Below, piece after piece: positions 13,034-19,448 of a stretch of 34,353 bases of DNA. The stretch is from an uncultured Mollicutes bacterium (GTDB lineage: Bacteria; Bacillota_I; Bacilli_A; Acholeplasmatales; Anaeroplasmataceae). Made by a program: the position numbers and the translations under genes. How positions within the stretch are numbered: the stretch's first letter is position 1; the number at the start of each line of letters is the position of its first letter. Under the pieces are notes generated by a model. The model did not search any database. It was not told the DNA's origin and saw only the letters and a program-made list of their open reading frames with translations. The stretch lies in contig CAMELE010000022.1 in assembly GCA_945923475.1 (NCBI GenBank), positions 1 through 34,353 of the forward strand. Reading direction: 5' to 3'.

Positions 13034-14086
13034 TTATTTAAGTTCAAACGAGTCACATTGGGTTTCACTACGATATTTAGCATTTTTTGAACCAATACTA
13101 ATTTTTTTTGCCTTGCAATAATTATCCTTATTATATATACAATAATTTGCTGAGCACCCTATTTTAACTCCAGCTTCATCATTAAACATTTCCTCAGCCA
13201 TTTCTTCTTTGAACATATTTTCATCGATAGGATTCCTAAATGATTGGCAAAAGGTCCCAAGTTTTGACCTAGAAAACAAGCCTTCAACCTTTATGTGCTT
13301 TTTATGACAATGACAATTCTCATTAAATCCACAATTAGTAGCTAAGCATTTAATTTCTGACATTTTATCATTCCTTTCAGCTATATTGTTTGAAGTTTTT
13401 TTATTTTTATACTTAGATGAAATTAAATGTGCTATTTTCTTATTGTATAAAATTCCAAATAGCGAAATAATTAATTCTACAATAAATACAAAAACTGCTA
13501 ACCTATAATTTCCTTTTATTACGGAAGCTCCAATCAATGTAGACGATAAAATAGAAGGAATTCTTGCAACTGCATTTATTAACAAAAAATCAAATGTACT
13601 AATATCAGTCATCGCGATGAAATATACATATATGTCCTTTGGCAGGCCAGGGATCAAAGTCAAGAAAAAAATCATTGTCTTAAGTCTACTGCTTTCAGTC
13701 AAAATGTTTTTTAGCCATATAGGCTTAAGCTTTTCTATATTTATTTTTAGATTGAGTAGTCGAATTAAATATATTATTATAAAGCTTCCTAACGCAACAC
13801 CAAGTTCCACAATAACAAGTCCTAATACAGGACCAAATATAGCACCCGAAGCTATTTCAAACACCTCACCAGGAAGTAGTGCTATTATAACCTGCAATGC
13901 ATTTAATAATACGAGGATAGTATATCCCCAAAAACCCTTCATTTTTATATATTCAATAAATCTTACTCTTGTTTCATAATCCTTAAGCCTATATATATCA
14001 GGTATAAAATATACAAGAGCAATAATTAGAAAGGAAAAGAAAAAAATCGTTAAAAATAATCTATATTTTTTTATAATATCATCCAA
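13034..14086 (-). CDS. TVP38/TMEM64 (VTT-domain) membrane protein fused to two DUF1540 modules
   Basis: 350 residues. Residues ~1-215 form five or six membrane helices of the VTT/SNARE-associated (TVP38/TMEM64) family, with the re-entrant PGEVFEIASGAIFGPVLGLV segment and the LTLIPGLPKDIYVY motif. Members move lipids or ions across membranes; the substrate here is unknown. Residues ~243-350 hold two DUF1540 Cys modules: the first with CLATNCGFNENCHC and a later TFCQSF, the second with CSANYCIYNKDNYCKAKKI and QCDSF. They look metal-binding. An ATG at 13361-13363 (residue 242) has AAAGGA just upstream and would give a free 109-residue double-DUF1540 protein. The gene overlaps the upstream pseudouridine synthase by 16 bases. 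Confidence 0.85.
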   Translation of the reverse strand: MDDIIKKYRLFLTIFFFSFLIIALVYFIPDIYRLKDYETRVRFIEYIKMKGFWGYTILVLLNALQVIIALLPGEVFEIASGAIFGPVLGLVIVELGVALGSFIIIYLIRLLNLKINIEKLKPIWLKNILTESSRLKTMIFFLTLIPGLPKDIYVYFIAMTDISTFDFLLINAVARIPSILSSTLIGASVIKGNYRLAVFVFIVELIISLFGILYNKKIAHLISSKYKNKKTSNNIAERNDKMSEIKCLATNCGFNENCHCHKKHIKVEGLFSRSKLGTFCQSFRNPIDENMFKEEMAEEMFNDEAGVKIGCSANYCIYNKDNYCKAKKISIGSKNAKYRSETQCDSFELK

Positions 14087-14954: not shown

Positions 14955-15830
14955 TTACAATACTTTTGATAGAAATTCTTGAAGACGTTTGGTTTGAGGA
15001 TGGTTAAATATTTCATCAGGAGTACCCTCTTCTCCAATTACTCCCTCACTCATAAATACTACTTTATCTGAGATTTCCTTTGCAAATCCCATCTCATGTG
15101 TAACAATTACAATTGTCATTCCTGTATTTGCAAGCTCCTTTATTACATCAAGGACTTCTTTAACCATTTCAGGGTCAAGAGCTGATGTTGGTTCATCGAA
15201 TAGCATTACATCCGGATTCATCGCCATCGCACGAACAATTGCTAAACGTTGCTTCTGACCTCCAGAAAGTTTTGTAGGCTTAACATTAGCCTTATCAGCC
15301 AAGCCAACCTTTTCTAATAGCTCGTGAGCTATTCTTGTAGCTTCTTCCTTCGAATACTTCTTAGTCATTTCCGGAGCCAATACAATATTTTCTAAGCATG
15401 TCATATTAGGGAATACATTAAAATGCTGGAATACCATTCCCATTTTTTGACGATGAATATTTAAATTCTTATCTATTGTTTTCTTTTGAATTCGATCTGA
15501 TTTTATAGAGGCTGCAATTTTCTTCTTTAATTCTAAATACTGCACATCAGCCTTTAGTGTCTTAGCATCTTTGTCTTTTGTATATTCTTTAAGTAAAGCC
15601 TTTAATGGAGCAGTATCACTTTTGAAAAGAATATCTCCTTCAAATGAAATCTCACCACTGGTTGGAGTTTCAAGTAAGTTTAGGCATCGAAGCAATGTCG
15701 ATTTACCTGATCCTGATGCACCAATTATTGATATAACCTCGCCCTTATGAACTTCGTAGTCAATCCCTTTTAATACATCAAGATTGCCAAAGCTTTTACA
15801 AACATTTTTTATTGAAATTATGGTTTCCAT
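14955..15830 (-). CDS. Amino acid ABC transporter ATP-binding protein
   Basis: 291 residues, of the GlnQ/HisP type. Walker [10 protein letters not shown] (about 36-44), Q-loop [13 protein letters not shown], signature LSGGQKQR, Walker [15 protein letters not shown] and switch His (IVTHEMGFA) are all present. It is about 50 residues longer than GlnQ because of a Lys-rich insertion (about 70-125) between Walker A and the Q-loop. It energises polar amino acid import with the permease encoded just upstream; its ATG overlaps the permease stop by one base (TAATG). Confidence 0.94.
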
Positions 15831-17098
15831 TAGTTAGCCAACCTCTTTTCTAAATACATAATTAAGCGTGATAAGCTAAATGTTACTATAAAGTATATTA
15901 TTGCAATTATGATATATGGTGATAGAGAATCTCCTGTAATACTTGTGATTGTAACCTTAGCTGACATTAATTCTCCAATTGCACTATTAACTGAATATGC
16001 AAGTGACGTTTCCTTAATAATCATTACAAGCTCATTTCCTAAGGATGGTAAGGCATTTTTTAATCCTTGTGGAATAACTATTTTAGATAATACTTGCCAA
16101 TTTGATAAGCCTAGTGCTCTACCTGCCTCAGTTTGACCAACATCTACTGCCTGAATACCAGATCTAAATATTTCAGCTGTATAAGCTGAGCTATTTAAAA
16201 ATAGCGCCAAGATACAAGATATGACTTCGGTAGAGAAAAATGACCCAATGTGAATTCTTGTTGGACCAACAATGCAATATATTAATAGTAATAATAGTAA
16301 TGAAGGTATTCCTCGAATTAATTCAATATATGAGCTACAGATAATTGATAATGGCTTATTTTTAGAAATCTTACCTAAGCATAAAGATGCTCCAAGAACA
16401 AGTGATAAAGCAATAGATATTACAGCAAGTAGAATTGTAATACCTAATCCCTTTGCAAATAATGTCCAATAATCTCTAAATATTGAAAAAATATTTGAAT
16501 TGTATACTGGATAAACAATCATATCCTTTGTAACATTTGTTAAATCCTCGGAAAAATACTTAAAATCAAAACCTCTTCTATGAGGAACTATAACATTTGA
16601 TGTATCAGCCTCTTGTCCATCTGCAACTATTGAAAATCCAATTATACCTGCAAGTTCAGTTGAGGATGTTTCATAATATGTTACTAGATGGTCATTTTCA
16701 GTCATTGCCCCAATATAAACTGTCAAATCCTTAAGTACAGTTTTAACAAAATAAGATTTATCATATCCTTCTGTTACAGTATATGTTGCGCCATTAGAAT
16801 TAGCCCAAAAATATGTCATTTTCAAATCATCATTTGGTTCATAGTACATCTTTATTTTAGTACCTGCCACAACAGAGGTACCAGACTCATACTTTCCTTT
16901 ATAATCCGAACCATCAAATATACTGTAGTATACATTGCCGTAATTAGGGTTACTATTTATTAAATTAATTGTAACTTTAGAGTTATCTACTGCAGCATCA
17001 ACAGTTTTATCACTTTTTTTATTAAAATTATTAATAATAAAGAAGCACATTAAACCTATTATCAGTACAAATGATATTTTCCTAAACGCTTTTTTCAT
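15830..17098 (-). CDS. Amino acid ABC transporter permease with extracellular N-terminal domain
   Basis: 422 residues. Residues ~205-422 are a HisM/GlnP-type permease: five membrane helices, the [14 protein letters not shown] segment, and the EAA loop [20 protein letters not shown] that contacts the ATPase. Unlike ordinary ~220-residue permeases, it starts with a signal-anchor helix (about 8-25) and a ~170-residue, Tyr/Thr/Asp-rich, probably beta-stranded extracellular segment. This is not a fused substrate-binding protein, as no SBP motifs are seen and a separate one is encoded upstream. Start ATG at 17098 behind AAAGGATG. A strong intercistronic hairpin precedes it. Confidence 0.9.
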
Positions 17099-17201: not shown

Positions 17202-18092
17202 TTATTCTTCAGGAACAAGTTCTTCTGCTTTATCTCCAAGATTTAATTGTAAAGCCTTTGCAGCATCAACCCAACCTGCAAATAAGTTATCTTGTGTAAT
17301 TTTGTCAATAACTGTATCAATTGCATTTTTTAGTGCTGTATTTCCAAGCTTAACCCACGCAAAGTTTCCTTCATATTCTTCTGCATTAAATGCTTCTGGA
17401 ACAATTGCAAGGGAATTATCAAGAACTAATTTTTGCTCCGCTACAGATTTCGCACATGCAAGACCATCAAGTGATCCAGCCTTTAGAGCTGTAATTGCAT
17501 CATCGATATTAGTAGTCTTATTTAATGTGGCATTTGGAATATATGTTTGAACTAAAGTAACTTGAAGTGATCCTGTTTGAGCGCCAATTTTAGTTGTTGA
17601 ATTATTTAAAGACTCTAAAGTTTGATACTTTGATAAATCTGATTTTTTAACGATAACAACCTGTCCACCGTCACCTTCTGACCAGTAACACTTTGTTGGA
17701 GTTGCAGATGCGGCTCTATCAGCTGTATATGAGAATCCGGAAATAGCTACGTCAATTGTACCAGCATCTACAGATGGTAAAATTAAATCAAAGTTCATAG
17801 CCTTAATCTCTAGCTCTAATCCAAATGCTTGAGCTAAAGCTTTAGCAAATGTAACATCAGCACCAACAAATTGATCTTGACCACTCTTTGTTGAATCAAT
17901 AAACTCCATTGGTGCGAAGTCAGTTGACATACCAACAGTTAACTTACCCTTTTGACAAAAACTAATATTTGAAACATCAACAGTACAATCAACTAACTTT
18001 TCAGCATTTGAATCTCCACCACATGAAGCAAGTGCTAACGAACTAGCAGCTGCTAAAATACCTAAACCAACATAATTAATAATTTTTTTCAT
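17202..18092 (-). CDS. Amino acid ABC transporter substrate-binding lipoprotein
   Basis: 296 residues, SBP_bac_3 family. A lipoprotein signal peptide ends in the lipobox LASC, with Cys at about residue 24 and a GGDSN linker. The family segments LTVGMSTDFAPMEFID, FVGADVTFAKALA, LPSVDAGTIDVAISGFSYTADR and the second-lobe KIGAQTGSLQV are clear. It captures a polar amino acid outside the membrane and hands it to the downstream permease/ATPase. Ligand identity cannot be deduced. The stop is followed by an acidic-coding-derived small hairpin (17180-17196) and the large intercistronic stem-loop. The leader upstream carries duplicated attenuator-like elements. Confidence 0.94.
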   Translation of the reverse strand: MKKIINYVGLGILAAASSLALASCGGDSNAEKLVDCTVDVSNISFCQKGKLTVGMSTDFAPMEFIDSTKSGQDQFVGADVTFAKALAQAFGLELEIKAMNFDLILPSVDAGTIDVAISGFSYTADRAASATPTKCYWSEGDGGQVVIVKKSDLSKYQTLESLNNSTTKIGAQTGSLQVTLVQTYIPNATLNKTTNIDDAITALKAGSLDGLACAKSVAEQKLVLDNSLAIVPEAFNAEEYEGNFAWVKLGNTALKNAIDTVIDKITQDNLFAGWVDAAKALQLNLGDKAEELVPEE

Positions 18093-18206
18093 TTTATATA
18101 TTCTCCATTCTTCTATTTCATTTATTTTATTTTGTTTCCTGTACTTTTCTTATACTACACAAAACATTTCGTCGGACTTTCATTCCTAACCTCCAAATTA
18201 AGCAAA

Positions 18207-18236
18207 GAAAAAGGACCAAACTTGATCATTGGTCCT
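18207..18236 (-). terminator. Leader terminator B of the ABC transporter operon
   Basis: Perfect 8-bp stem AGGACCAA / TTGGTCCT (18212-18219 with 18229-18236) followed on the minus strand by five T. Its promoter-side arm can instead pair with ATTGGTC encoded at 18261-18267, giving a competing antiterminator. Confidence 0.8.
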
Positions 18237-18342
18237 CATACAAATTCATTTTTAATGTTAGACCAATAATTATGATAATCACCATTTGGCCCTAACATAA
18301 TTATACTCAAGTTCAAATTATTAAACTATCTTTGCAAATTTA
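18237..18342 (-). promoter_or_regulatory. Leader element B (putative aptamer and switching stem)
   Basis: Contains GCAAAGAT (complement of 18328-18335), a small AGTT/AACT hairpin and TGAGTATAA (complement of 18301-18309), the same order as in element A. Next comes an 11-bp stem formed by ATGTTAG...CCAA and TTGG...CTAACAT (18286-18298 with 18255-18266), then terminator B. The arm TTGGTC is shared between this stem and the antiterminator pairing. No T-box sequence or known riboswitch consensus was recognised. Confidence 0.55.
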
Positions 18343-18347
18343 CCAAT

Positions 18348-18371
18348 AAAAAAGTCTACCCTAGAGTAGAC
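18348..18371 (-). terminator. Leader terminator A of the ABC transporter operon
   Basis: Stem GTCTAC / GTAGAC (18366-18371 with 18354-18359) followed on the minus strand by six T. Its first arm overlaps the 3' strand of the element A base stem (TAGACAG / CTGTCTA), so the two folds exclude each other. Confidence 0.75.
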
Positions 18372-18420
18372 AGTTAAGATTTTATACTCACGAATTTCTT
18401 CGATCTTTGCTGTCTATTGG
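18367..18420 (-). promoter_or_regulatory. Leader element A (putative aptamer)
   Basis: Base stem TAGACAG / CTGTCTA (18410-18416 with 18367-18373) encloses GCAAAGAT (18403-18410), hairpin CGAA-GAAA-TTCG (18391-18402), TGAGTATAA (18382-18390) and AATCTT, which pairs back to AAGAT. It begins right at the transcription start. The 8-mer and the 9-mer recur in element B. Confidence 0.55.
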
Positions 18421-18427
18421 TGTTTTC

Positions 18428-18455
18428 ATTATACATTATTAATATACAATGTCAA
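18428..18455 (-). promoter_or_regulatory. Sigma-A promoter of the ABC transporter operon
   Basis: On the minus strand perfect TTGACA (18450-18455) and TATAAT (18428-18433) are separated by 16 bases. Transcription should begin near 18421, leaving a leader of about 330 nt before the binding-protein gene. Confidence 0.85.
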
Positions 18456-18532: not shown

Positions 18533-18566
18533 AAGTATGCTATTTTTATACGAGGAGATAATATAT

Positions 18567-19448
18567 ATGGAAAAAAAAGATTATACAGTAAAAGCGTATT
18601 GTTTCAACAATAATGCTAGAATATATGCTTGCGATTCTACTACTTTGTGTGAAGAAGCCCGTAAACTACATGGTACATGGCCAACATCTACTGCCGCACT
18701 TGGAAGAAGCCTAAGTGTAGTTGCGATGATGAGCTTAATGTATAAAATGGGTGAACATCTAACTGTTAAAATTGATGGTGGTGGACCAATTGGCCAAATG
18801 ATTATCGAGGCCTCATACGGAACTGTAAAGGGGTCAATTCACAATCCTGAGGTTTTCTTACAATATAATGATGGACATCTTGCAGTTGGCAAGGGTGTTG
18901 GTACTGATGGTGATATTGTAGTAACTAAAGATTTAAATATGCGTGAGCCATTTACATCTATTGCTAATTTGCAAACTGGTGAAATCGGAGACGATTTTAC
19001 ATATTATTTTGCATCATCTGAACAAATTCCTTCTTCTGTCGGGGTTGGAGTCCTAGTTAATCCTGACAACTCAGTTAGTGCAGCAGGTGGATTTATTCTA
19101 CAGCTAATGCCTGGATGTCCTGAAGAGGTAATCACCAAAATCGAAGAAAGACTTAATAATATTAAACCTGTCTCTCAAATGATTAGCGAAGGATATACTC
19201 CAGAAATGATAATAAATGATGTTTCTGGTGGTGATTATCATATCCTTGAAACTAATCCAATCAAATACGAATGTGATTGTTCTAAGGAAAGATTTGCAAG
19301 AGGTATTGCAACTTTAGGTTACGATGAACTAACAAAAATCATTAATGAAGATGAAAAAGCAGAGGTTTTATGCCACTTCTGCATGAAAAAATATAACTTC
19401 AACAAAAGTGAATTGATTTCAATTAGAGATAATTTTTGCAAAAAATAA
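18567..19448 (+). CDS. hslO: Redox-regulated chaperone Hsp33
   Basis: 293 residues from the ATG at 18567, which has AGGAG at 18553-18557; an in-frame ATG 30 bases earlier lacks a ribosome binding site. Hsp33 is a holdase activated by oxidation. Family segments GHLAVGKGVG, YYFASSEQIPS and GGFILQLMPG are present, and the C-terminal zinc switch holds the four cysteines CDC (about 231-233) and CHFC (about 264-267). It is divergent from the ABC transporter operon and ends in a bidirectional terminator. Confidence 0.96.
   Translation: MEKKDYTVKAYCFNNNARIYACDSTTLCEEARKLHGTWPTSTAALGRSLSVVAMMSLMYKMGEHLTVKIDGGGPIGQMIIEASYGTVKGSIHNPEVFLQYNDGHLAVGKGVGTDGDIVVTKDLNMREPFTSIANLQTGEIGDDFTYYFASSEQIPSSVGVGVLVNPDNSVSAAGGFILQLMPGCPEEVITKIEERLNNIKPVSQMISEGYTPEMIINDVSGGDYHILETNPIKYECDCSKERFARGIATLGYDELTKIINEDEKAEVLCHFCMKKYNFNKSELISIRDNFCKK

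Follow-up and report, generated by a model that had tools for sequence, protein, structure and literature searches.

The window analysed here is a 34,353-nucleotide stretch of DNA from an uncultured Mollicutes bacterium of the Anaeroplasmataceae. Read directly from the sequence, its minus strand carries a leader that extends from a promoter (18428-18455) down to the binding-protein gene (17202-18092) of an ABC transporter, with the following features in and around it.

18537-19448, plus strand: hslO (Hsp33), the divergent neighbour (PF01430; tblastn)
18428-18455, minus strand: sigma-70-type promoter, TTGACA (18450-18455), 16-nt spacer, TATAAT (18428-18433), from direct sequence
18342-18421, minus strand: 5' hairpin region at the P1 position, ACCAATA/TATTGGT, enclosing copy 1 and terminator 1 (folding)
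18410-18416 and 18367-18373, minus strand: base stem of copy 1, TAGACAG/CTGTCTA
18382-18410, minus strand: copy 1, GCAAAGAT-hairpin-TGAGTATAA, limited to the 5' half of the motif
18348-18371, minus strand: terminator 1, GTCTAC-TCTAGG-GTAGAC followed by T6, -8.1 kcal/mol (folding)
18252-18338, minus strand: copy 2, the complete conserved element and candidate aptamer (covariance model R1, 83.8 bits)
18310-18327, minus strand: hairpin P2, AGTTTA/TGAACT
18296-18304, minus strand: strand ATAATTATG, 5' side of P3, invariant in alignments A1 and A2
18286-18295, minus strand: P4 5' arm, TTAGGGCCAA, pairing with 18258-18266
18266-18274, minus strand: strand CATAATTAT, 3' side of P3, invariant in alignments A1 and A2
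18258-18266, minus strand: P4 3' arm, TTGGTCTAA, doubling as antiterminator strand
about 18208-18237, minus strand: terminator 2, GGACCAA...TTTGGTCC followed by T5, -11.9 kcal/mol
18127-18183, minus strand: short leader ORF, MKVRRNVLCSIRKVQETK, with the tandem Arg codons CGA CGA
17202-18092, minus strand: substrate-binding lipoprotein of a basic-amino-acid ABC transporter (PF00497)
15830-17098, minus strand: ABC transporter permease (PF00528; TIGR01726 above cut-off)
14955-15830, minus strand: ABC transporter ATPase (PF00005; GlnQ/ArtP-like)

The best NCBIfam model for the binding protein is TIGR01096 (Lys/Arg/Orn), with a score below the cut-off, so that a basic amino acid is only the probable substrate of the window transporter. 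The nearest solved chains are 4i62, 4h5f, and 4ymx, presumably all arginine-binding proteins. The Thermotoga maritima arginine-binding protein group (PMC4022495) lies slightly further away. An AlphaFold prediction of the binding protein alone gave a pLDDT of 33. Also on the minus strand of the window, 13034-14086 encodes a DedA-like membrane protein that has a VTT domain and, at its C-terminus, two DUF1540 stretches.

The original prediction, made from the letters alone, described a consensus promoter followed by two tandem copies of a motif around unlike hairpins, each copy with an intrinsic terminator of its own and an alternative pairing. The sequence bears out each of these parts. On the minus strand, GCAAAGAT lies at 18403-18410 and 18328-18335, and TGAGTATAA at 18382-18390 and 18301-18309, around hairpins that differ between the copies (CGAAGAAATTCG; AGTTTAATAATTTGAACT). 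The promoter has the expected hexamers and spacer, both terminators are present by sequence and energy, and the pairings TAGACAG/CTGTCTA and ATTGGTC/GACCAAT both exist. In the 2.45-Mb genome, the pattern GCAAAGATN{4,30}TGAGTATAA matches only at copies 1 and 2, and its reversed form has no match. A degenerate third AGTATAA near 18150, which had been suggested to be a remnant, has neither AAAGAT nor a hairpin and falls inside the Arg-codon ORF; it is taken as a chance occurrence.

The core of copy 2 extends further than had been noticed, through ATAATTATG, CATAATTAT, and helix P4, and the full order of the element is AAAGAT, hairpin P2, TTGANNATAATTATG, CATAATTAT, helix P4, and terminator. Copy 1 consists of AAAGAT-hairpin-TGAGTATA, with neither the ATAATTATG/CATAATTAT pair nor P4, and scores 18.4 bits (E 0.12) in model R1 against 83.8 bits for copy 2. 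It is present only in the window genome and its sister G002, where it is degenerate, with about six substitutions, whereas the core of copy 2 in G002 has two single-base insertions and no substitutions. The stem of terminator 1 is retained in G002 and its loop altered. Copy 1 occupies the place of hairpin P1 in other leaders, which in genus g5 is a plain hairpin (GTATCTAT...ATAGATAC), and it is read here as a partial duplication. Folding gives the copy 1 element with its base stem -12.7 kcal/mol and terminator 1 -8.1 kcal/mol. The 5' arm of terminator 1 overlaps the CTGTCTA strand. The base stem would form earlier than the terminator and compete with it, and default read-through would be expected in this model. 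The proposed tandem arrangement is therefore only partly supported, and the equivalence of its two aptamers is not, copy 2 alone being complete and copy 1 changing faster. What is supported of the suggested attenuator is a conserved, structured leader with termination control and a link to an amino acid, which the gene context suggests to be arginine.

A cmscan of the whole window against Rfam 15 found no family at gathering score, including the lysine, glycine, and glutamine riboswitches, and thus gave no confident match of the kind that would have removed the novelty. At relaxed thresholds, the leader gave chance matches only, far under the gathering scores.

The element is conserved in relatives. 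A 16-letter pattern built from both motifs matched in 25 of 100 genomes, a set made up of the window genome and its relatives, and all matches except L153, which is coding, are nearly identical between and beyond the searched letters. The shared sequence, GCAAAGATAGTTTA..TAAACTTGAGTATAATTATG....CATAATTAT, has 42 invariant columns in 23 leaders, far above the 16 letters used in the search, and the TTGACA/TATAAT arrangement immediately 5' of the element recurs in the relatives compared. Within the family of the window, covariance model R1 detects the element in 28 of 55 genomes; one further weak match there is coding and was dropped. Elsewhere in the order, R1 finds no element among 160 genomes, a single weak match being coding. 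Among 395 genomes sampled from the class, the element also turns up in four members of a second family, f9, which belongs to another order (4 of the 15 genomes of that family). The f9 leaders are true homologues with diverged P2 and P4 (AAAAGATAGGATTTATTCCTTGATTATAATTATG..TTAGCTT..CATAATTATAAGCTAG). Their copies score 58-65 bits in a second covariance model, R2, with which no families beyond these two were found. A core-only pattern matched six times in 324 genomes, always in true members, and its reversed form not at all. In total, the element is present in 32 Bacilli genomes, a narrow range that takes in two families, with several hundred genomes of the class searched.

Several other matches were rejected. 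A scan of genome contigs for GCAAAGATN{4,30}GAGTATAA returned more than 100 matches from many phyla, which are chance occurrences by inspection and fall to none with a longer core. The one match on viral contigs lies within coding sequence and is missing part of the core; a stricter pattern had no match on these contigs. The weak model matches L205, L206, L207, and L242 and the pattern match L250 are either coding or without the core.

The helices of the element change in sequence and keep their pairing, as the original prediction had required of a real aptamer along with conservation of both motifs. In most members of the window's family the P2 stem reads AGTTTA/TAAACT, and in f9 it reads AGGA/TCCT or GGGA/TCCT, so that AGTT/AACT is replaced by AGGA/TCCT between families through compensating changes. 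P4, which also shows compensating changes, links the bases just 3' of ATAATTATG with those just 3' of CATAATTAT. Counting covariation on a MAFFT alignment is uninformative, as P3 never varies and P2 and P4 fall out of register, and arms were instead swapped between leaders. Across 32 leaders, the mean duplex energy of native P4 is -12.5 kcal/mol, compared with -7.3 kcal/mol (sd 0.49) for swapped arms, and none of 1000 shuffles reached the native value. Because kinship among the leaders inflates such tests, the comparison was repeated with one leader from each of six genera; here the native P4 pairing is the best of 720 permutations, as is the native pairing between the P4 3' arm and the terminator 5' arm.

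Both pairings persist although the sequences are wholly different between genera. A single strand that stays complementary to two partners, an upstream arm and a terminator, despite such turnover is the mark of a terminator/antiterminator switch. The P4 3' arm can pair with the P4 5' arm or, alternatively, with the 5' arm of the terminator, and in the window the alternative partner of the 5' arm of terminator 2 is this same strand; these are the mutually exclusive helices expected of a riboswitch. The strands ATAATTATG and CATAATTAT are complementary as well as invariant and may form an early hairpin, as in prefix folding, or a pseudoknot with P4. Since this invariant pairing offers no covariation, the pseudoknot is put forward as a model. 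The core folded alone has a modest z-score of -1.44.

The genes behind the element point to arginine. The element is present in every one of the 24 family genomes that have a strong match to argG (Fisher p 9e-12, ignoring kinship), and in 23 of them the element, a T-box, and argG follow one another at one locus; in the remaining genome (G072), the contig stops after the element. Two operons read further consist of argG-argH-argC-argJ, with argB added in one of them (genes named by family models in L254 and by translations in L255). Rfam T-box matches occur at all eight loci scanned at a relaxed threshold, four of them above gathering score, and in the relatives they sit downstream of the element and outside it. 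The position of the specifier is mostly CGC, CGU, or CGA after GAA, which in a T-box corresponds to arginine. In f9, the binding proteins are equally close to glutamine and arginine proteins. Overall, the element is a conserved structured RNA in the 5' leaders of metabolically related genes, another feature expected of a riboswitch.

Four family genomes have the element without argG, namely three with a basic-amino-acid transporter (the window genome, G002, and G008) and G012, with an apparent relic. In G002, the contig stops after the element and the transporter sits on another contig. In G012 (L172/L259), hslO and the element are followed by an unrelated HAD-like hydrolase; an arg operon and T-box seem to have been cleanly lost here, with the element remaining as a relic. 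The T-box covariance model has no match in the window, where the Arg-codon ORF, which has a ribosome site, follows terminator 2 and precedes the transporter gene. Counterparts of this ORF are MRVRRCVMCDMKRFLENKQKK in G002 (L260, C151) and MEGRRFFNI in G008 (L176/L247). The ORF may be a second sensor, at the level of tRNA-Arg, in place of the T-box; no terminator was identified downstream of it in the window.

In 21 of 28 family loci, the window among them, the gene that diverges from the element is hslO. At this hslO-flanked site, genera g5 and g2 have arginine biosynthesis and g1, the genus of the window, has the importer. The regulatory RNA thus stayed while its cargo changed from biosynthesis to uptake, the transporter having replaced the operon in the window genome and its sister. 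The exchanged cargoes share one end product, arginine, and no other observation speaks as strongly for it as the ligand.

Copy 2 is probably a cis-acting transcription-termination OFF riboswitch of an undescribed class, with L-arginine as its most likely ligand on the basis of gene context. When arginine is scarce, the P4 3' arm would pair with the terminator 5' arm to form an antiterminator, and the operon would be transcribed. When arginine is plentiful, it would bind directly to the invariant core (AAAGAT, TTGANN, ATAATTATG, and CATAATTAT around P2) and stabilize P4, which would probably form a pseudoknot with ATAATTATG and CATAATTAT. The stabilized P4 would free the terminator, so that transcription stops and uptake or synthesis is shut down. 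The OFF direction is suggested by analogy, from the nature of the controlled genes. In the window, the riboswitch would govern the basic-amino-acid importer. In relatives, it would govern arginine biosynthesis in series with the Arg T-box, an arrangement in which free arginine and then the charging of tRNA-Arg would be read successively on one transcript.

Other explanations account for parts of these data. The leader could be a site at which an arginine-responsive RNA-binding protein chooses between terminator and antiterminator in the manner of TRAP, HutP, or LicT. Very strong conservation around a small variable hairpin is also typical of protein sites, and another arginine regulator could have taken over in this family, since ArgR (PF01316) is found in 0 of its 55 genomes by a search that is positive in 9 of 14 control genomes. 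The leader does not, however, present a single repeat or compact hairpin; its conserved letters flank P2 and P4, as in ligand-binding aptamers, and no candidate regulator gene is common to the neighbourhoods of the elements read, which makes a protein site unlikely. A riboswitch for ornithine, citrulline, lysine, glutamine, or another nitrogen signal is likewise improbable. A pathway intermediate or nitrogen signal would suit the same genes, and the relatives of the binding protein include Lys/Arg/Orn as well as glutamine types, but what argG, argH, argC, and argJ jointly, or an importer, have in common behind the element is the end product arginine, and the specifiers of the accompanying T-boxes are mainly Arg codons.

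Ordinary attenuation, in which the Arg T-box or an Arg-codon leader peptide regulates and the element is an RNA stabilizer or constitutive terminator, draws on the presence of a T-box or Arg-codon ORF downstream of the element in family loci with intact cargo. A second Arg sensor of this kind could explain part of the regulation. Yet the element comes with a terminator of its own and with an alternative pairing that is conserved, and the f9 loci have neither a T-box nor an evident leader peptide, so that this account is very doubtful. It is most improbable of all that the leader acts as a DNA operator. Although ATAATTATG and CATAATTAT do make an invariant inverted repeat, their spacing varies from 12 to 22 bases among relatives, which is unsuited to a rigid dimer site, and they lie downstream of the promoter in an element with compensating changes in P2 and P4.

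The preferred reading, an arginine-responsive riboswitch, would place the element in a known functional kind, but it belongs to no catalogued class. Artificial aptamers show that RNA binds arginine well. The validated classes of amino-acid riboswitches comprise only those for glycine, lysine, and glutamine, and a 2022 review raises the question of why their number is so small (PMC9971707). Like these leader RNAs, which often act by termination, it would respond directly to an amino acid and regulate the synthesis or transport of that amino acid, but it has no Rfam match, differs in conserved letters and layout, and is linked to arginine genes. It resembles a T-box leader (RF00230) as an attenuator in the leader of amino-acid genes, but is a separate unit with its own terminator and lacks both a specifier loop and a TGGNACCGCG antiterminator bulge. 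Tandem riboswitches (PMC9481103) similarly have two sensors and two terminators within a single leader RNA, whereas here the element precedes a T-box and, in the window, the full copy follows a partial one. The outcome would match that of repression by ArgR/AhrC, with arginine turning off biosynthesis and uptake; that mechanism, unlike this one, is protein-DNA, and ArgR is absent from the family as noted above.

No arginine riboswitch or argG-linked RNA motif was found in a search of the literature to August 2026 that covered mainly open-access journal papers. That the element represents the first natural class of L-arginine riboswitch, placed in series with a tRNA-Arg T-box and retained as synthesis gave way to an importer upon loss of the pathway, seems slightly favoured. 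If so, arginine would be only the fourth amino acid known to be sensed directly by a riboswitch, through a compact RNA of roughly 90 nt, and the element and T-box in one leader would make a natural two-input arginine circuit. The hslO locus offers a clean case of a regulatory RNA retained while the genes downstream were exchanged.

Two minor features of the relatives may be added. In genus g5 (L154-L172), the hairpin 5' of the element has a strongly conserved loop, about TTTTGGRCCGGTTCCTTA, and the f9 leaders are without this hairpin. The argG T-boxes of L158, L167, L168, and L198 carry the specifier UGA (GAA-UGA) instead of CGC, CGU, or CGA, which U-G wobble with tRNA-Arg(ICG) would explain.
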